Below the pieces are notes generated by a model, which did no database searches, was not told the origin of the DNA, and saw only the letters and a program-made list of their open reading frames with translations. The position numbers were made by a program, and so were the translations under genes. DNA of 64,000 nucleotides, from the IMG/VR virus record IMGVR_UViG_3300010413_000019, positions 1 to 64,000 of that record; one strand, given 5' to 3'. Within the stretch, counting starts at the first letter, position 1. Each line of letters starts with the position of its first letter. This stretch comes from a virus. Below, piece by piece: positions 13,057 to 64,000 of this stretch.

Positions 13057-13338
13057 TTATAGTTCTTCATACCCGGCGGATGCCGGTAGGCCGATTGATT
13101 CCATCTGAGAGATGATCTCACGGGCGTCTTCAAGAGTAGTCAATCCTGATATTTCCCACTCACCAAGAATGTCATCGTTATCTTTTACATAGACAAGGAC
13201 ATCGTAGTACTCGGGCTCTGCATTCAGTTCAGAAGCAGGGATATACTCGTTCTTGTTTTCAGGGTTCTGGATCATTCCGATCACCTGAACCTCTGTTGCG
13301 TTTTTGACCAGATCGGTCTGTAATTCAGTGAATTCCAT
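13057..13338 (-). CDS. Hypothetical acidic protein
   Basis: 93 residues, AAGGAC before ATG. Alternating strands and helices with a final helix rich in Glu; could be a small ferredoxin-like fold, but I recognise no family. Short gaps on both sides place it in the replication operon. Confidence 0.6.
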   Translation of the reverse strand: MEFTELQTDLVKNATEVQVIGMIQNPENKNEYIPASELNAEPEYYDVLVYVKDNDDILGEWEISGLTTLEDAREIISQMESIGLPASAGYEEL

Positions 13339-18216: not shown

Positions 18217-19440
18217 ATGGGTCGCACAACAAAACCTCTCAGCGATGCGGAGGTCCGCAAAGCAAAATCCCTCGAAAAGATGTATAAGCTCTTTGACGGA
18301 GCGGGGCTCTATCTCGAGGTGAAGACAAATGGCCGTAAGGTATGGCGTACCGACTTCCGATGGGAAGGCAAGACCAAATCATACACGATCGGAGACTATC
18401 CGACAGTGACTCTCTCTTCGGCCCGTATAACGTCCCAGGAGGTCCGTGAGGATGCCAGGAATGGCATTGATCCAGTACAGAAGAGAAAAGGCTCTGAGGG
18501 CTCTGAGAATGCTGTATCCATACAGACCTTTAAACAGGTTGGAGATGAGTTCATGGAACTCAAATCATACACGTACAGTCTGTCACACTACATGAAGCAG
18601 CACGGCCGGTTGAACAACTACGTCTACCCCTACATCGGATCCAGGGATATCAGGGAGATCACCAAGCAGGACATCATTGATCTGATCAAGAATGTCCAGA
18701 AGGTAGAGACTAAGACCACCCGGCAGACTCAGAAGCATGAGACAGCCAAGAGAGTCTTTCAGTTGATCTCACAGATCTACCAGTACGCGGTGCACCATGA
18801 CATCGTCATTGATGACATCCCCCGGAGGATAGAGTTCAGTTCAGTCATCCCCAGGATCACCCCGCAGAAGCTAAAGGCGATCGTTGAACTCAACGGGGTC
18901 AGGATGATGTACGGGATGCTCTCGGAGTACCAGGGAGACTTCACAACGAGGAACGCATTGAAGTTCCTGGCTCTATCTGCACTGCGGCCGGGGAACATCC
19001 GGAACATGAAGTGGGAGTACATCGACTTCCAGAATGATGTGGTCAACTTCCCAGGGGAAGCTATGAAGATGAAGGAGTCATACAGACTCCCTCTCACTTC
19101 CACACTGATCCAGTTGATCGATGAGATGAAACCCCTCACCCGGTACCATTCCGAGTATGTCTTCTGCTCGCCTATCGCTCCGAGCAAGCCGATGTCCGAG
19201 AACACTCTGAACTACGCCCATAAAAGAATTGGGATCGCAGACCATAATGCCCACGGCTGGAGAAGCTCGTTCTCAACCCTCTGTTATGAGAAGCAGAAGG
19301 ATCACGGCTTCGGAGCTGAAGTAATAGAGAGCCAGTTGGCACACTCACTGGGGAATGCGGTGAAGACTGCCTATCTCAGGAGTGATTTCATCGTTGAGAG
19401 GCAGCTGCTGCTCCGATGGTGGGAGAAACTGATCACGTAA
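18217..19440 (+). CDS. int: Tyrosine-type integrase
   Basis: 407 residues, the size of P4-type prophage integrases, with the N-terminal DUF4102-like domain (about 5-90), a SAM-like core-binding domain (about 100-200) and the catalytic domain. Catalytic residues are all present: R257 (SALRPGN), H346-x-x-R349 (HGWRS), H376 (LAHSLG) and Y386. It is the only long plus-strand gene in the left half and sits in its own control region. It would recombine attP with a bacterial attB, commonly a tRNA gene for this family. Unexpected in an N4-type phage. Confidence 0.93.
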   Translation: MGRTTKPLSDAEVRKAKSLEKMYKLFDGAGLYLEVKTNGRKVWRTDFRWEGKTKSYTIGDYPTVTLSSARITSQEVREDARNGIDPVQKRKGSEGSENAVSIQTFKQVGDEFMELKSYTYSLSHYMKQHGRLNNYVYPYIGSRDIREITKQDIIDLIKNVQKVETKTTRQTQKHETAKRVFQLISQIYQYAVHHDIVIDDIPRRIEFSSVIPRITPQKLKAIVELNGVRMMYGMLSEYQGDFTTRNALKFLALSALRPGNIRNMKWEYIDFQNDVVNFPGEAMKMKESYRLPLTSTLIQLIDEMKPLTRYHSEYVFCSPIAPSKPMSENTLNYAHKRIGIADHNAHGWRSSFSTLCYEKQKDHGFGAEVIESQLAHSLGNAVKTAYLRSDFIVERQLLLRWWEKLIT

Positions 19441-23458: not shown

Positions 23459-23472
23459 AGCCCGGATGGGCT
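23459..23472 (-). promoter_or_regulatory. GGAT-loop hairpin (AGCCC/GGGCT)
   Basis: A perfect 5-bp stem with the same GGAT loop (ATCC on minus) as the candidate early promoters. It lacks the adjacent TTTAA, and it follows the stop of the upstream gene by 8 bases, so a terminator is equally possible. Confidence 0.35.
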
Positions 23473-27232: not shown

Positions 27233-27255
27233 TTAACACCCGGATGGGTGCTTGA
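27233..27255 (-). promoter_or_regulatory. Candidate hairpin promoter (CACCC-GGAT-GGGTG, TTAA)
   Basis: Stem CACCC at 27237-27241, loop GGAT, GGGTG at 27246-27250; on its left lies TTAA, the same arrangement as at 33278 and 33417. It points leftward into the 30-residue peptide and following genes. See the finding on hairpin promoters. Confidence 0.45.
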
Positions 27256-31878: not shown

Positions 31879-31919
31879 TTTTTTCCTTGGGTGTTGGGTT
31901 TGTTTAACCCCGGAGTGAT

Positions 31920-32756
31920 CAGCGTGGATCCTCACACACCGGGTTGATTCCGACCTGCGGTATTGACTTGCATCGAAACAGATTGGTCATCTGCATTAGG
32001 TTCAAGTGGGTTTCCCCTCCCTGATACAAGCGGTGCATTAAACCGGCAGGAACCAGAAGAGTTCTCCCTCCTTTACCATTCAGAGGGCTAGATTCGTAGT
32101 TGTCTTTGCCCGTTGGCTACGTCCACAACTATCTCGATCTATCGGTTTTAAAAACGGGTGGATTAATAGTTACCACCATTACCCATGTCTCGGACGCATG
32201 GTTGACCACAACTGCCTATCGAGTTGCCAGACTAAGGAGTTGGTAAGGCTCCAAGGAACACACCGCACCTGTGGCGGATACACCTTGCTATCGTACATAG
32301 CAAGTCCAGTTAAGCAGCTTCATACATGTACGACATTTGGCTGCTAGATGTGCTCACTGGAACCTTATGGCGCCCGCACAAGGGTTTGAACCTCGTGCCT
32401 ATCGGTAGCGTGGTCGATAGGATTGTCGAGCCTCTTCGGAAGAGCTACGCTGCCCCTATTCCAAGGGATGCTCTCTACGACAACAACGCAAACGTGGCAA
32501 TACCGTTCCGATTCAGATTGATCAACATCTTTCACGTATTAAGCTACCACTGGGATTGTTGAGCCGTCCTACTATACTCTACGGGCATATACATACTCCC
32601 GGTAACCGACCGGGCTTGGTTCATTTGATATCGTTCAATAGAGGTACCTTACCAATAACTAAAACGTCCTATCTATCCTCAAGGAAGGGTGTTGGTCCGA
32701 AGACCTCAAAGGCTGGTAAGACCTCTATGAACCTGGGTCACCAGTCAGGCTCATAG
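31920..32756 (-). ncRNA. Candidate giant structured noncoding RNA (about 840 nt)
   Basis: No credible gene fits here, yet the region contains many stems. Examples: TAGTTGT 32097 with ACAACTA 32125; CTCGAT 32133 with ATCGAG 32218; CTTGCTA 32284 with TAGCAAG 32298; CCAGT 32306 with ACTGG 32356; GCACAAGG 32376 with CCTCGTGC 32391; CCTATCG 32398 with CGATAGG 32415; CAACAA 32481 with TTGTTG 32556; TAGAGGT 32639 plus TTACC 32649 with GGTAA 32715 plus ACCTCTA 32721. The 7-base loop TCGTACA (32291-32297) is complementary to TGTACGA (32327-32333) in the loop of the next stem, a kissing pair. Size, phage setting and nearby tRNA recall GOLLD and ROOL RNAs. The strand is inferred from neighbouring genes; wobble pairs give a mixed answer. 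Confidence 0.6.
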
Positions 32757-32761
32757 CGACC

Positions 32762-33130
32762 TTACAGGCCACATATAAGTGACAGAGATCCCCTTTCAGT
32801 GATCTTGATCTGCCACAGTGCTTTTGCGTACCCCATCATAAAGATGAGTTGTTTCTCCGACTTATGCACATACTTGGGGTTAACTGAGTAAACCCGTACA
32901 ACATAGTCGTTCTCACGGAGAATAACGCGCTCTTGTTTGCTAAACCAGGCGCGCAGCTGTCTCTTGCTCTTGAATCCAAAGAAATAGCGGTAAGCATCGG
33001 CACTCTCCAAGATATCTTCGAAGTCTTCCCCGAAAGTTGGGTGTTCGGCGTCTGCATGATTGAAGAGCGCAACTTTATCGGCATAAGGACCATATCCATC
33101 TGTCCTATGTTCGACACGGTAGATCAGCAT
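32762..33130 (-). CDS. Hypothetical phage protein
   Basis: 122 residues, AAAGGAT before ATG. Begins LIYRVEHRTDGYGPYAD, with a helical FGFKSKRQLRAWF and a strand-rich end. The opening resembles small phage proteins of unknown function. The next thing downstream is the structured RNA region, beginning within a few bases of its stop. Confidence 0.65.
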   Translation of the reverse strand: MLIYRVEHRTDGYGPYADKVALFNHADAEHPTFGEDFEDILESADAYRYFFGFKSKRQLRAWFSKQERVILRENDYVVRVYSVNPKYVHKSEKQLIFMMGYAKALWQIKITERGSLSLICGL

Positions 33131-33263
33131 TCAAATCCTTTGTTTAGACTCTCTCGAGATGGCTACTATCTAGCATTCGCAAGAAGGCCCAAGCCAAAGG
33201 CTCGGGTGAGGAGAAAATTTGGAGAGTTCTGAGGAGAAATTGTGGTGAACAGGTTGTTTATTC

Positions 33264-33293
33264 CCTGTTGCATTTAAGGGCGCGGATGCGCCC
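33264..33293 (-). promoter_or_regulatory. Candidate early hairpin promoter 1 (GGGCGC-GGAT-GCGCCC)
   Basis: Stem GGGCGC at 33278-33283, loop GGAT, GCGCCC at 33288-33293, flanked on the left by GCATTTAA. Read on minus: stem, ATCC loop, stem, then TTAAATGC. This matches the layout of N4 virion polymerase promoters, where a short stem with a 3-base TCC/GGA loop sits about 11 bases before the start. Confidence 0.6.
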
Positions 33294-33302
33294 AGAGGTT
33301 AT

Positions 33303-33341
33303 TTAACAGTCCGCTGGACTGCTACCGAAACCTGATTTCAT
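33303..33341 (-). CDS. 12-residue leader-like peptide with ideal ribosome site
   Basis: AGGAGGTGCCCT precedes ATG; the frame encodes 12 residues and stops. Its end forms the hairpin CAGTCC/GGACTG (33307-33321) next to TTATTTAA. Could be a leader peptide or just a decayed gene start. Confidence 0.35.
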   Translation of the reverse strand: MKSGFGSSPADC

Positions 33342-33355
33342 AGGGCACCTCCTAG

Positions 33356-33406
33356 AAAAAAAATCGTGGACAAGCCTCACACCCTCTTTTGGGTGCTATC
33401 TTGTCC
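33356..33406 (-). terminator. Strong intrinsic terminator directly behind promoter 2
   Basis: On minus, GGACAAG/CTTGTCC (33400-33406 with 33368-33374) encloses CACCC/GGGTG, followed by four bases and eight T (33356-33363). With promoter 2 it would yield an RNA of only about 50 nt. Confidence 0.7.
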
Positions 33407-33430
33407 TGCATTTAAACCCACGGATGTGGG
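33404..33430 (-). promoter_or_regulatory. Candidate early hairpin promoter 2 (CCCAC-GGAT-GTGGG)
   Basis: Stem CCCAC 33417-33421, loop GGAT, GTGGG 33426-33430, left flank GCATTTAAA, nearly the same flank as promoter 1. It lies right after the stop of the gene at 33433-33645. Confidence 0.6.
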
Positions 33431-33432
33431 CG

Positions 33433-33645
33433 TTAGTCGCCGTGTAGGTGTGCATAATCATCATCATTCTGATAATCTTTGTTAAGTTCCATCTCTTGGA
33501 TGCCGAACCACTCGTATTCCCAAGCTGTTCGGCCTTCATGATCGATGGAGGCTACTGCGGCCTCTCGGGTGTCGTAGACACCTACGATGTAACCGCCCTG
33601 TTGGTCGTACTCATTGACAAATCGTAGTACCGCGAATAACTGCAT
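33433..33645 (-). CDS. Hypothetical protein
   Basis: 70 residues, AAGGAG before ATG. Strand-rich N-terminus (YIVGVYDTREAAVASI) and a very acidic end. No family known. Lies 9 bases after the RNA polymerase subunit. Confidence 0.6.
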   Translation of the reverse strand: MQLFAVLRFVNEYDQQGGYIVGVYDTREAAVASIDHEGRTAWEYEWFGIQEMELNKDYQNDDDYAHLHGD

Positions 33646-33654
33646 TGGTTCTCC

Positions 33655-34683
33655 TTATGATAACATGTATTCACTCTTACGGATGTCCTCCGCAAGGTCA
33701 TAACTGAACTTCTTCAACTGAACATCTGTACCGGTAATCTCGCTGATGATATCGCTGAGCAGGTTGCTCTCTGCAATTTCAGCCAAGATGTCACGGTAGA
33801 AGTCCATCACCTTTGGCATGTGGTTCGGATGGCATGTGAAGGCATCATGGATATGTGCTACTTCAAAGTCTGCACGTCTGATAATCTCACGTGCGACATA
33901 CCCGTCAATGCTGTGGATGATGTTGGGCGCCAAGGATGTTTTACGGTCACTTGGTTGGTTCGGGTAGAAGCGGTATGTGAACTGCATGTGATTGAGTTCA
34001 TCCACTTCAATACGTGCATCGACTTGGTCGACTACGTTTACCTTTGCCACGTGACCGTCTGGCAATGTCCACTGGTGGAAGTATGCGAACGGGTCCCAAG
34101 CATTGTTGATGACCTGCATGACAGCCTCTGCACCCGTGAACTTCTCCATGAGAATCTCGTAGAACATGTTAAGCTCCATCGTATCCTCACCAAGTAGCTC
34201 TTTAGGCTTGGCCTTAGAGTTATAGTAGTGAGTCATGATAGGCTTTTTGATGTAGCTACGGGTGAACATAGGGTTCTCGCCGGCTTTAGCGATAAGTGCG
34301 TCCGATACGGCTGTATAGGCGTCATTACGCTGGCCGTTGTTGATAAGGTTTACAGCTTCGGCTGTCTTCTTACACCCTGAGAGTGCGGCCATGATTTGTA
34401 GCCCACTTGCAGTGGCATCCATGAACATGTTGTGGTTGATAGGCTTACCGTCTACCGCATCGGCAAAGGCATAGCAGGCCTTGCGGAACATCAAAGGCTC
34501 TTCAGCCTGAGATGCCCACTCATCAAGATTGTTCAGGATATCTGTTTGGTTCTGGTTTACCCACTGGATGCGGGTTTCGAACAACTCTTTGTCAAGGCCG
34601 TAGGTATTGGCCATATCGATTTTCAACATGTCGAAGCCTGTGAAGCGCTCCGCGAATGAGATAGGTTTTGGTATTGCTGACAT
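33655..34683 (-). CDS. T7-like RNA polymerase, C-terminal subunit (N4 RNAPII gp16-like)
   Basis: 342 residues carrying the catalytic core. Motif A has D89 (FMDATASGLQ), motif B has the YIKKPIMTHYYNSK segment at 144-157 (fingers Lys and Tyr of T7 polymerase), and motif C has D280 (HIHDAF). It lacks the N-terminal half of the enzyme, which is encoded by the gene at 34846-35754. N4 also uses a two-subunit polymerase for middle genes, so the split is ancestral rather than a mutation. It would transcribe the replication block. Confidence 0.9.
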   Translation of the reverse strand: MSAIPKPISFAERFTGFDMLKIDMANTYGLDKELFETRIQWVNQNQTDILNNLDEWASQAEEPLMFRKACYAFADAVDGKPINHNMFMDATASGLQIMAALSGCKKTAEAVNLINNGQRNDAYTAVSDALIAKAGENPMFTRSYIKKPIMTHYYNSKAKPKELLGEDTMELNMFYEILMEKFTGAEAVMQVINNAWDPFAYFHQWTLPDGHVAKVNVVDQVDARIEVDELNHMQFTYRFYPNQPSDRKTSLAPNIIHSIDGYVAREIIRRADFEVAHIHDAFTCHPNHMPKVMDFYRDILAEIAESNLLSDIISEITGTDVQLKKFSYDLAEDIRKSEYMLS

Positions 34684-34715
34684 AGGTGGTGACCTCTTTC
34701 TTTTGTTGGTTCGGG

Positions 34716-34844
34716 TTAGCTAAAGATATAAGCAACTACGATGAGACTATAGATGTCGAACATAAATCCGAACAGCTTGGTCAAATCATCCATTGGATTA
34801 CCATCAACATATTTGTTGATGAGAGACAATATGATGGTCATCAT
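34716..34844 (-). CDS. Small membrane protein between the two polymerase genes
   Basis: 42 residues (or 41 from the second ATG). It starts one base after the stop of the N-terminal polymerase subunit and has a hydrophobic second half (FGFMFDIYSLIVVAYIFS), a likely TM helix. Its position inside a conserved gene pair is unusual. Confidence 0.55.
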   Translation of the reverse strand: MMTIILSLINKYVDGNPMDDLTKLFGFMFDIYSLIVVAYIFS

Positions 34845-34845
34845 G

Positions 34846-35754
34846 CTATGCTACCCCTGTAAGTATCTCTGCTTTGGCAAACTGTAGGATTGCCTTCTTG
34901 TACTCCGAGCCCTGAAGGTTGATATCATAGCCCTGTGAGTACTGGCGCCCGCGCTTGTCGAACTTCCACACGAAATAGAACTGGTTCTCATTGTCCAGTT
35001 CATACTGGTATACACGGTCTGATTGAGCACACCGCGCATTGTGCTGTTCGATTTTACGCAGTTCGACAGGATCCGTGATGTCTCCAGTCTCCTTGGGAAG
35101 TTCCTTCTCCGCGAGCATACATGTATTGAGTTCCCAAGCAATGCTTTGGAGTTTGTTCAACACATCAAGACTCTGTTTCATACCGTGGTAGTTCTGCTCG
35201 CCGAGGATGGCTGAGCTGTCTTCGAGAAGTAGTCCCCCATGTCTGTTGTCTGTCCAAGGACGTGGTTCACACGTCATCGGTGGCAGGTACATAGCCATGT
35301 GGATTTTCTGAAGAGTCTCATCTTCGAGTTTGAAGAATGGTTTGATGACTGCCGTATCATGGTCGTGCTCCGGACTGAAGGCATGAAGTATCTCATACAC
35401 TCCGGCATCCTTGCACACTGCAAGTATCTCTGCACCACACTTGACTGCATCAAGTTGCTCGAGACCGATACGGTGACCTAACATCGTGGCTACCGCCTGG
35501 ATAGGCGTGACACTGTCTAACGTACTGAGGACCGAATAGAACAGCTCAACAGCTATCTCTTCTGGTTCCATAGATATCTTGGCGATACGCTCATCCTTGG
35601 ATTTGAAATACTCCTTACCAAGGTACTCACGCACTGCAACTACACATTGCTGATAGTTCGGGTTACCGTTAAGGTCTCCGATGTCCTGTTTAATCCACAC
35701 TGGGATATTCTTTTTACTGTAAGTCTCTTCGACTGTTAATTGAGTTTGATACAT
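34846..35754 (-). CDS. T7-like RNA polymerase, N-terminal subunit (N4 RNAPII gp15-like)
   Basis: 302 residues. The C-terminal part FYFVWKFDKRGRQYSQ contains the D-x-x-G-R motif of single-subunit polymerases, and the last residues (AILQFAKAEI) match the stretch just before the break. The first residues of the other subunit continue the fold (KPISF...FDMLKI). The shared ribosome leader AAGGACATCCTC precedes ATG. Confidence 0.85.
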   Translation of the reverse strand: MYQTQLTVEETYSKKNIPVWIKQDIGDLNGNPNYQQCVVAVREYLGKEYFKSKDERIAKISMEPEEIAVELFYSVLSTLDSVTPIQAVATMLGHRIGLEQLDAVKCGAEILAVCKDAGVYEILHAFSPEHDHDTAVIKPFFKLEDETLQKIHMAMYLPPMTCEPRPWTDNRHGGLLLEDSSAILGEQNYHGMKQSLDVLNKLQSIAWELNTCMLAEKELPKETGDITDPVELRKIEQHNARCAQSDRVYQYELDNENQFYFVWKFDKRGRQYSQGYDINLQGSEYKKAILQFAKAEILTGVA

Positions 35755-35829
35755 GAGGATGTCCTTTTCGAGGTTGTATCATAGTTCATTGGCATAGGGT
35801 AAGTTAATACATGCATAGACATACCGGAA

Positions 35830-35856
35830 CTATTTGTCCGAATTTGTTACAATAGC
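35830..35856 (+). promoter_or_regulatory. Promoter of the RHH regulator
   Basis: TACAAT at 35848-35853 preceded by TGTTA (35845) and TGTCC 10 bases earlier, the same periodic style as the late promoters. The ribosome site AAAAAAAGGACATCC follows. Confidence 0.55.
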
Positions 35857-35878
35857 ACATCCAAAAAAAGGACATCCT

Positions 35879-36163
35879 ATGAAACACAAAAAGAAGATAC
35901 CACTCTCTGCCAAGGTCTCCGAAGAGACCACTGAGCAGTGACAGGACCTGCATGAATGGCTTGGCCTATCGAAGGCCGAGATATTAACTCGAGCGATCTA
36001 CCAGTACTACCAAGTCACCGAGAGAACATCATTTAAACTGATGTCACTGCAGAGACCGGATGATAGATTGTTCTTTATGAACACTGCCCGAGAGTTATGT
36101 TATGAAGCACTCGATAAGACTATCGAGAAGCTCAACGAGAGATTGAATGAGAAGTCTGAATGA
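35879..36163 (+). pseudogene. Ribbon-helix-helix regulator interrupted by an in-frame TGA
   Basis: The frame reads 20 residues (MKHKKKIPLSAKVSEETTEQ), TGA at 35939-35941, then 73 residues and a real stop. Joined, it is a CopG/Arc-like RHH protein: basic start, beta strand KIPLSAKVSEE, helix, LGLSKAEILTRAI, then a helical oligomerisation tail. The reading frame is intact on both sides, so this is a single nonsense change (CAG-TGA-CAG) or a recoded codon. It stands alone on plus between early operons, the place for a repressor. Confidence 0.75.
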
Positions 36164-36289
36164 CTGTGAGACACGTCATCAATGTACCACGTCCGTACAT
36201 CGCTCTGAGTCATAGACTAATTGTAGGGTGACCTACTCACTACTAAAAAGAATCCTGAGCAGATCGGAGTTAAGAGAATTTGCGTTGGG

Positions 36290-36330
36290 AAGGAAAAAAA
36301 TAAGGGAGTATCGGGATAAACCCGATAGTC
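36290..36330 (-). terminator. Intrinsic terminator
   Basis: On minus, TATCGGG/CCCGATA (36321-36327 with 36309-36315) with a 5-base loop, followed by CTCCCTTATTTTTTT. It ends the 36332-36586 transcript just before the RHH gene's 3' end. Confidence 0.7.
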
Positions 36331-36331
36331 T

Positions 36332-36586
36332 TTAGGCTGTCTTTAGATATTGGTCAAGACCGGTTGTATCGATTTCACGAGAACCGAATTCTTCAACAGT
36401 AACATCTTTCAGCATTTTTGCAAGTGCCTCTGGAGTGATACGTTCTTGAACAGCTTTTGGAAGACGTTTGTTGATGATGACATATCCAAGATAAGTATCA
36501 CCGATGGAGAGAGAGAAACCTTTCGCGTCATCTTTCGGTTTCGGAGTTTGGTTTGCCTGATTGTTGTTATTCAGTGCTTCGGTCAT
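36332..36586 (-). CDS. Small early hypothetical protein
   Basis: 84 residues from the ATG with AAGGACATCCTC. Low-complexity Asn/Gln/Pro/Lys N-terminus, then a folded part with SLSIGDTYLGYVIIN and a helical end. First early gene left of a terminator; no family known. Confidence 0.6.
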   Translation of the reverse strand: MTEALNNNNQANQTPKPKDDAKGFSLSIGDTYLGYVIINKRLPKAVQERITPEALAKMLKDVTVEEFGSREIDTTGLDQYLKTA

Positions 36587-36644
36587 GAGGATGTCCTTAA
36601 AGTTATGTAATGAGATGCATTGCACTCACCCATCACTAAAAAGA

Positions 36645-36678
36645 AAAATAGAAAAATAAAGAGGTCTCCCCTCTTATG
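36645..36678 (-). terminator. Intrinsic terminator behind early promoter 3
   Basis: On minus, AAGAGG/CCTCTT (36670-36675 with 36659-36664) followed by TATTTTTCTATTTTTC. About 50-70 bases downstream of the hairpin promoter at 36730, with only a 13-codon frame in between. Confidence 0.65.
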
Positions 36679-36717
36679 TATTTCCTATCTATAAGTGTAG
36701 GTGTAGTGTAATATAAG

Positions 36718-36749
36718 TATCTTCATTATCAGTGCACGGATGTGCACTG
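36718..36749 (-). promoter_or_regulatory. Candidate early hairpin promoter 3 (CAGTGCAC-GGAT-GTGCACTG)
   Basis: An 8-bp perfect stem with loop GGAT (36738-36741), left flank AT-rich (TTCATTAT). Same loop and orientation as promoters 1 and 2. Confidence 0.55.
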
Positions 36750-36799
36750 TATATGTATAATATATATATCCCCAAGTGGAATTATAAGAGCATATACTT

Positions 36800-36830
36800 A
36801 GAAAAAAATAAAATGACAGCTTATGCTGTC
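36800..36830 (-). terminator. Intrinsic terminator of the tiny-gene cluster
   Basis: On minus, GACAGC/GCTGTC (36825-36830 with 36815-36820), loop ATAA, followed by ATTTTATTTTTTT. The stop codon of the last tiny gene is in the loop. Confidence 0.75.
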
Positions 36831-36946
36831 TTGACTGCTGTGACCACATAACGTAGTAGATAGAGCAGATGAATGAGGTTGGCAGTATTACTGCAACTGG
36901 TTCGGATGGTATGGAACGTAGTCCCATTGAAGTACTTGATGACCAT
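36821..36946 (-). CDS. 41-residue peptide, last of the tiny-gene cluster
   Basis: Start overlaps the previous stop (TAATG). Basic, with a hydrophobic stretch in its second half. Its stop lies in the terminator loop. Coupling supports it; no homology recognised. Confidence 0.45.
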   Translation of the reverse strand: MVIKYFNGTTFHTIRTSCSNTANLIHLLYLLRYVVTAVKTA

Positions 36947-37038
36947 TAGAAGATAGCCTTCAGGATTTTAGGGCTTAGTATCAGCCCGATACAGATAGCT
37001 CCTAGTTGTAGAGTCTCTGTTGTGATGAAATCAGGCAT
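36946..37038 (-). CDS. 30-residue TM peptide
   Basis: AAAGGAGG before ATG, a strong ribosome site. Hydrophobic centre (LGAICIGLILS) gives a likely membrane segment. Confidence 0.5.
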   Translation of the reverse strand: MPDFITTETLQLGAICIGLILSPKILKAIF

Positions 37039-62457: not shown

Positions 62458-64000
62458 ATGCCAGACCCTTTTCTACCAGAACTCGATATCACTGTAGCCA
62501 AGGCTATTGCCGATGCCGATCAGATGCTTAAAAACAGCGGTTTTGATGTCCCTTCGATCGCTACTCCCAGTCCTGTCATCCAAGATGGCGATACCATTGA
62601 TAACAAGCGTATCATGGGTTACGACACAGCCGAGTCCTTCAAATCTGATAAGGCCCAGCGTATCCTAGACCAGTACGGTCTGGACCTTGATCAACAGAAG
62701 GCTCTCGGTCTTGCCGGTAAGGATCACCTGAAGGAACTGCTCAAGAACCCGGAATACTCCCAGTTTGAAGACAAGGGTTTCGGTGCGATGGGTCGTAGAC
62801 TCACGCAGAACGATCCACTTGCAGAGAAGATGATCTCTGACGGGTTCGCGGTTCCTACCGATCGCTATGATCCAAAGAAGCAGGAACTCTATCGTAGAGC
62901 GGTGGAGAAAGAGACCAACCTATTTGGAACCAACCGGGAAGAGATGGAATCCCTTCGTCAATACAACATTGACCGACAGAAGCCGGGATACCTATCACGT
63001 ACAGGTGAGTCGGTCGATGCATTCCAGTCCGGTGCGGTCCAAGCGGTAGGTAAGCTCGGGGACTTCGTAACAGATGTCGTGGCATGGGGAGCTGATAAGA
63101 CTGGTTCCAAGAAGTTTGCCAAGTTCATGGATGAATCCTTCGAAAAGATGTCATCCAGTGAGTACGCCGATAAAGTGACCGGGTTCGATAGACGTGAGGC
63201 CAACTTTGCTATGGCCGAAGCCACACACCAGTGGAAGACCGGTGACTACGCAGGAGCGCTGAAGACAGCCCTGACAACTCCTGAGGTTGTTGCCGAGTCA
63301 CTCCCTCTCATGATAGAGATGATGGTAGGTGGCGGTAAAGCCAAAGAGGGTCTTACCGGTGTCAAGCGTCTGGGCAGTTACCTCAAAGCCAACTCCGGTC
63401 TAGCAGCGGTAATCGGTCAAGAGACCAATGCCCAAGCAGAAGAGTACGAGACTCTCCACGGTGAGAAACCAAATGCTGTCAAGCTGGCTCAGATGACTGC
63501 GATGAACACTGTGATGTTCAGCCTTGACCGTCTCACATTCAAACAGATCACCGGACTAAAAGACGGACTCAAGAGTGCAGCTCAAGCATTGCCCGACTCC
63601 ACCAAGATGGAGATCATGAAGAAGGCGATAGCTCTAACTGCATCTACTGGTTCGGCTATGGCAAAAGAGGGTGCACAGGAGTATGTCCAGACATGGGGTG
63701 AGATCCTCAATGTCCAAGCCGGTACAGACCTCGACTCATACATGAAAGTCCTCAACGATGAGGAAGCACAGCGTGAGGCTCTTACTGGAGGTATCATGGG
63801 TGCCGGAGCCGGTGGTCAGATACATCTCGGAGCCAAGGCAGTCAAAGGTACTGTTGATACCGTATCCCAGAAGGTCGATGAAACTGTCAAGGAGATCGAG
63901 AACACTGATAAGCAAGTGACCGGTACGGCGCCAAGCTATGACCCGGTAACCTCTATGACTCCATTCCTTGATGCAGACCCAAAGACAATGTCATCTGTAG
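62458..64000 (+). CDS. Start of a giant gene, probably the virion RNA polymerase (N4 gp50-like), 5' part
   Basis: The ATG has AGGA 8-11 bases upstream and opens 514 codons that continue past the window. The visible part is a helical N-terminal domain with a hydrophobic segment near 280-295 (VVAESLPLMIEMMVGGG). No polymerase motif is visible because it would lie further in. Location after the gp52- and gp51-like genes matches N4, whose virion polymerase (about 3500 residues) is injected with the DNA and transcribes the early genes. An internal virion protein is the alternative. Confidence 0.65.
   Translation, partial: MPDPFLPELDITVAKAIADADQMLKNSGFDVPSIATPSPVIQDGDTIDNKRIMGYDTAESFKSDKAQRILDQYGLDLDQQKALGLAGKDHLKELLKNPEYSQFEDKGFGAMGRRLTQNDPLAEKMISDGFAVPTDRYDPKKQELYRRAVEKETNLFGTNREEMESLRQYNIDRQKPGYLSRTGESVDAFQSGAVQAVGKLGDFVTDVVAWGADKTGSKKFAKFMDESFEKMSSSEYADKVTGFDRREANFAMAEATHQWKTGDYAGALKTALTTPEVVAESLPLMIEMMVGGGKAKEGLTGVKRLGSYLKANSGLAAVIGQETNAQAEEYETLHGEKPNAVKLAQMTAMNTVMFSLDRLTFKQITGLKDGLKSAAQALPDSTKMEIMKKAIALTASTGSAMAKEGAQEYVQTWGEILNVQAGTDLDSYMKVLNDEEAQREALTGGIMGAGAGGQIHLGAKAVKGTVDTVSQKVDETVKEIENTDKQVTGTAPSYDPVTSMTPFLDADPKTMSSV

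Follow-up and report, generated by a model that had tools for sequence, protein, structure and literature searches.

A predicted promoter-terminator unit for a short early RNA behind the RNAPII genes of an N4-like phage

Introduction

Hairpin promoters that are read by the virion RNA polymerase (vRNAP) are an established part of the biology of bacteriophage N4. The promoters present in the N4 genome (at positions 95, 564, and 4553) possess the loops C[TTC]G and C[TCC]G, which correspond to C-GAA-G and C-GGA-G on the template strand. The N4 enzyme reads a G at −8, a G at −10 and a purine at −11, and extrusion of the hairpin needs closure by a C:G pair (PMC4496689); a P1 oligonucleotide of N4 is given in PMC12633501, and the promoters predicted for the Klebsiella phage KP8 have TCC loops as well (PMC6950046). 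For phage LUZ7, a paper from 2010 lists promoters before genes 1, 12, and 13 only. Termination by vRNAP is described in general terms only, mini-vRNAP being stated to terminate in the same way as the complete enzyme.

Here, we analyze a stretch of 64 kb, referred to as the window, of a virus record of 71,681 bp that stems from an N4-like (Schitoviridae) phage. New in our study are a family-wide view of the region behind the RNAPII genes, a hairpin loop of four bases, and the constraint that acts on the entire promoter-terminator unit.

Results

The window encodes the polymerases expected for a phage of this type, together with a family-A DNA polymerase, and its terminase region resembles that of Pseudomonas N4-like phages:

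33655 to 34683, minus strand: gene for the RNAPII large subunit (N4 gp16-like; phrog_2051, E 8e-112)
34846 to 35754, minus strand: gene for the RNAPII small subunit (N4 gp15-like; phrog_2166, E 4.5e-57)
62458 to 64000, plus strand, continuing beyond the window: start of the vRNAP gene

The vRNAP frame is of giant size (at least 3074 aa up to the end of the record) and matches structures of the N4 virion RNA polymerase (chain 11fw, E 9.8e-52); the alignment to the promoter-contact residues of N4 was too uncertain to be used as evidence. Early and middle genes run leftward from about 37.4 kb, and late genes run rightward from about 38.3 kb. From these directions it follows that the unit starting with hairpin P2 (see below) lies among the early genes, on their coding strand, behind the RNAPII genes and one gene for 70 aa. 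The window also contains a gene for a tyrosine integrase with an arm-binding domain (18217-19440, plus strand; Pfam PF13356 and PF00589); N4-like phages as a group are commonly regarded as strictly lytic. A ribbon-helix-helix-like frame on the opposite strand (35879-36164, plus strand), located between the RNAPII genes and position 36625, is interrupted at codon 21 by an in-frame TGA, where tryptophan would fit, and terminates in TGA; it might represent a pseudogene, a sequence error or a case of read-through.

The minus strand reads CCCACATCCGTGGG from 33430 to 33417. This hairpin belongs to a family whose stems differ in sequence, each being self-complementary, and whose members have one loop in common, C[ATCC]G:

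36730 to 36749, minus strand: P1, predicted hairpin promoter, CAGTGCAC[ATCC]GTGCACTG
33417 to 33430, minus strand: P2, predicted hairpin promoter of the vRNAP type, CCCAC[ATCC]GTGGG (template CCCAC[GGAT]GTGGG)
33278 to 33293, minus strand: P3, predicted hairpin promoter, GGGCGC[ATCC]GCGCCC, upstream of a gene for 122 aa (33130-32762)
27237 to 27250, minus strand: family hairpin CACCC[ATCC]GGGTG, with the ATG of a 30-codon frame 5 nt behind it
23459 to 23472, minus strand: family hairpin AGCCC[ATCC]GGGCT
13073 to 13086, minus strand: family hairpin CCGGC[ATCC]GCCGG

Including a further copy within the DNA polymerase gene, seven hairpins with a C-G-closed ATCC loop on a stem of 5 bp or more are read on the minus strand of the window and none on the plus strand; 200 dinucleotide shuffles yield 0.09 on average and never more than 1, and every other four-base loop word occurs at most twice. 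The 30-codon frame, which extends from 27236 onward, is a membrane-peptide frame. An ATG is likewise found 4-8 nt behind P1, P2, and P3, so that leaderless messages are conceivable. Among related loci, L136 (53% RNAPII identity) carries three C[ATCC]G hairpins with the stems GCGCAC, GGGCAC, and AGAGCC, and L143 carries one hairpin with the four-base ATCC loop. Two other searches were set aside: matches to sigma-70 promoters near P2 were weak and did not exceed those in shuffled sequences, and when viral contigs were searched for the DNA pattern CATCCG-N4-8-TTAAATGCA, a stem of three or more pairs was present in just 1 of 120 inspected matches, as expected by chance.

The hairpins of the window share with P1 to P3 of N4 a perfectly paired stem of 5 bp or more, the C:G closure, a template loop that starts with G-purine-A, and the setting in a unidirectional early region of a genome that encodes a vRNAP. 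The perfect stem comprises 5 bp in P2, 6 bp in P3 and 8 bp in P1, and the loop measures 4 nt (GGAT on the template), compared with stems of 5-7 bp and loops of 3 nt (GAA or GGA) for promoters of the N4 type. The template CGGATG contains the C:G closure, the G at −10, the purine at −11 and an A at −12, along with one extra T. At −8, P2 and P1 have an A in place of the G, which is present in P3; at +1, following the 4-nt spacer, a T takes the place of the C in both P2 and P3, with the first C 3 nt further on. Since the template loop C-GGAT-G resembles the loop C-GGA-G of N4, the ATCC-loop hairpins very probably act as vRNAP promoters whose loop is one base longer. Such a four-base loop would broaden the definition of a vRNAP promoter, and searches restricted to three-base loops would consequently miss promoters.

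None of the three N4 promoters has a strong terminator close behind it. P2 differs from them in this respect:

33367 to 33405, minus strand: terminator hairpin in which an internal loop separates two stacked stems (dG −22.4, z −5.05)
33356 to 33363, minus strand: terminator T8 tract, separated from the stem by 3-4 nt (ACGA)
33356 to 33412, minus strand: predicted short RNA of about 50-57 nt, with a start inferred at 33412-33409

The nested hairpin from 33405 to 33367 can be written as GGACAAG-AUAG-CACCC-AAAAGA-GGGUG-UGAGG-CUUGUCC. The RNA of 55 nt folds at −22.4 kcal/mol (shuffles, −10.2 ± 2.4), and the T8 at 33363-33356 is the only run of at least eight T in the 64 kb when both strands are considered. 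A stable stem is thus followed, after 3-4 nt, by a U tract, as in an intrinsic terminator (33405-33356). The spacing in N4 would place the start of the RNA at 33412, and the first G is at 33409; the predicted RNA consists almost entirely of the terminator hairpin. A reading made beforehand from the sequence alone had proposed this very arrangement of promoter, nested hairpin and T8 as the source of an RNA of about 50 nt; its coordinates prove accurate, nothing else lies between the promoter and the T8, and hairpin number as well as folding energy depart strongly from the shuffled controls. That reading had also considered leader attenuation. In its strict form, attenuation is unsupported at 33356 because disallowing the terminator stem carries a penalty of 12.9 kcal/mol, and no competing antiterminator fold was found even after extending the folded sequence as far as P3. 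Searches of Rfam with 31900-37000 gave no match up to an E-value of 1, and elsewhere tRNAs only; the stretch 33340-33450 has no match in the named phages.

A Shine-Dalgarno sequence and a short frame follow directly behind the T8:

33303 to 33341, minus strand: candidate 12-codon frame MKSGFGSSPADC, with TAGGAGGT 5 nt upstream of the ATG

This frame could be translated from a read-through RNA only. About 62 nt separate P3 from the T-run of the P2 unit, and a single close relative (31% identical) was found for the 122-aa gene located downstream of it. Directly upstream of P3, the region 33302-33322 of the minus strand can form a 9-bp hairpin, AGCAGTCC-AGC-GGACTGTT, without a T-run. Behind P3 and the 122-aa gene, about 830 nt (31936-32761) are devoid of a minus-strand frame and fold with a z of −1.6; Rfam and phage DNA searches with this stretch gave no match, and it possibly encodes a long non-coding RNA, or else is a remnant.

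A second terminator-like element lies behind P1:

36650 to 36674, minus strand: T1, weak terminator-like stem (36674-36658) with a T-rich tail (z −1.89)

An RNA from P1 to T1 would measure about 70-78 nt, and its fold is not clearly above chance (z −1.89). P1 is the sole ATCC-family hairpin found upstream of the RNAPII genes; with no other family hairpin in between, transcription from P1 must pass through T1 if P1 drives these genes. The two units are consequently not equivalent. The sequence-only reading had regarded them as two copies of one plan: both promoter hairpins are indeed present and a terminator-like stem follows P1, yet T1 is weak and the predicted RNA is slightly longer than had been proposed.

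We fetched 80 loci from viral contigs by their RNAPII and included the regions of the named phages N4, LUZ7, LIT1, KPP21, PA152, and Cbunavirus; an RNAPII search of bacterial genome contigs retrieved none. Most loci have an intrinsic terminator behind the RNAPII stop codon, and three states can be distinguished there. A terminator only is found in N4 and others. A terminator followed by a promoter is present in seven loci (including L137, L146, L155, L178, and L212). A promoter followed by a terminator occurs in LUZ7, KPP21, PA152, LIT1, L144, L149 (with a poor terminator), L150, L154, L167, L183, L143, and the window, the last two, whose units extend past the scanned stretch, having been labelled by eye. 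The assignments of L161, L136, and L159 are more tentative, because a promoter hairpin plus a T-rich stretch may be counted as a terminator by the scan. With seven loci showing the reversed order and N4 the terminator alone, the promoter-then-terminator order is not universal.

On a maximum-likelihood tree of RNAPII, the promoter-then-terminator label changes 3 times, compared with 10.6 changes for shuffled labels (0 of 500 shuffles were as low); the labels had been assigned manually from the scans, and the shuffles test clustering only. The tree group that contains the window has 8 members (support 87/83), 7 of which are labelled promoter-then-terminator, and all 5 members of the group with LUZ7 and LIT1 (support 99/98) carry this label. 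Overall, terminators are found behind 18 of 94 promoter-like hairpins and at 19 of 188 random places, a roughly twofold general excess at low stringency that does not constitute our main argument.

LUZ7 and LIT1 (Migulavirinae) resemble the window in that a hairpin is followed, after about 46-48 nt, by the T-run of a strong terminator, with a predicted RNA of about 50 nt. Their promoter hairpin is located 8-9 nt behind the stop codon of the RNAPII large-subunit gene, whereas in the window the extra 70-aa gene intervenes; their loop is TCC rather than ATCC, with a T-A closing pair in LIT1, and their RNA sequence is unrelated to that of the window. Between LUZ7 and LIT1, the stems of both promoter and terminator differ at near-equal spacing (about 46 and 48 nt), and the RNA sequence of the unit is unrelated between genera.

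Within Luzseptimavirus (LUZ7, PA152, and KPP21), the unit is under strong constraint: it forms the longest invariant run, 73 nt, of a 3-kb stretch, and this run extends from the foot of the promoter hairpin to the end of the T-run (8236-8308 in L134, the LUZ7 locus). The third codon positions of RNAPII are 77-78% identical among these three phages, and different genes come after the unit. Among four Litunavirus genomes, 73 of 75 unit positions are invariant, and other stretches are equally conserved.

Cbunavirus phages (phiA41, CB1, CB4, and EK8) are similar to the window in possessing an early-region hairpin promoter, then about 70-80 nt, and a terminator. Their unit differs by its position 0.5-0.75 kb behind RNAPII and by an RNA that contains GCGTCTGCATAACTTAG, which is absent from the window unit; the promoter stems are replaced in full from one of these phages to another. 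We have set aside the conserved RNA body of the Cbunavirus units as proof of a specific RNA, as the entire intergenic region is conserved. A Cbunavirus-like promoter-to-terminator unit was also seen in L172 (6769), L173 (6969), and L187 (7090), whose RNAs share GCGTCTGCAT(A/T)ACT and whose promoter stems are likewise replaced in full between phages.

Discussion

Both signals of the P2 unit exceed chance, the cognate polymerases are encoded in the same genome, and the order of promoter and terminator is kept in two clades. We consider it reasonably probable that the unit functions on its own in early transcription by vRNAP and gives rise to an RNA of about 50-57 nt. The injected vRNAP would recognize the template-strand DNA hairpin at 33430-33417, initiate 4-8 nt downstream of it, and stop at the hairpin and T8 (33405-33356), thereby releasing an RNA that comprises little beyond a stable hairpin and a U tail; the same terminator would also end the RNAPII operon that arrives from upstream. 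We infer that P2 is used by vRNAP, that transcription stops at 33356, and that selection acts to preserve the short RNA as opposed to read-through. A small RNA terminated by default appears to be the best reading of the P2 unit. Accordingly worded as a small early RNA, the proposal of the sequence-only reading is the better supported of its two options, given the vRNAP-type promoter, the strong terminator, and the conserved order; the RNA most likely would have a regulatory or structural role.

It is unlikely, although worth considering, that P2 instead serves the downstream genes through a leaky leader terminator, which would set the passage of vRNAP without any sensing and yield the short RNA as a by-product. 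Such a gate would fit the several units in which a Shine-Dalgarno sequence and a frame are found close behind the T-run, the conserved stretch of LUZ7, which nearly reaches the next gene, and the read-through of weak T1 that P1 needs if it is the RNAPII promoter. At the P2 unit, however, the only frame separating the terminator from P3 is that of 12 codons, P3 serves the next gene by itself, and no antiterminator fold was found. A terminator followed by a gene is also found in N4, at a locus that has no promoter, so that this layout is no evidence of a leader. With P3 so close behind the T-run and serving the next gene, leaky gating suits P1 better than P2.

We attach a still lower probability to a mere juxtaposition, in which the terminator of the RNAPII operon happens to lie behind a promoter or a docking site of vRNAP, with vRNAP ignoring the terminator and making no product of its own there. 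The existence of loci with a terminator only or with the reversed order, and the low overall excess of terminators behind hairpins, would be in keeping with it. Against this stand the clustering of the promoter-then-terminator order on the RNAPII tree, the joint invariance of promoter, gap, and terminator in Luzseptimavirus, and the retention of both hairpins at near-equal spacing but with different stems in LUZ7 and LIT1. That the hairpins are not vRNAP promoters at all, and serve as other binding sites or RNA elements (e.g., repressor operators or RNA-processing sites), is highly improbable: a loop of four bases and an A at −8 are at odds with N4, and the copies at 27250 and 13086 are situated in the expected middle-gene region, but loop and closing pair match N4-type promoters except for one added base, and the position behind RNAPII matches that of relatives with the standard TCC loop.

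Going beyond the window, one might speculate, and we do so with considerable doubt, that Schitoviruses possess a family-wide, unnamed class of small RNAs that vRNAP makes from behind the RNAPII gene in the first minutes of infection; its architecture would be kept while its sequence turns over, and it would have a dedicated role, for example in the control of RNAPII expression, in vRNAP capture or in the priming of DNA synthesis. If the default-terminated unit works as predicted, the injected polymerase makes a tiny terminated RNA besides mRNA, and does so at a fixed place of the genome in two clades. The unit would then be a defined target for deletion in the tractable phages LUZ7 and LIT1, and it would offer a clean substrate for asking if vRNAP obeys intrinsic terminators.

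ONT-cappable-seq of LUZ7, published by Putzeys et al. in 2022, reportedly revealed putative small non-coding RNAs. These would resemble the predicted product of the window unit in being short terminated RNAs of an N4-like phage, and one of them may correspond to the LUZ7 unit behind RNAPII.
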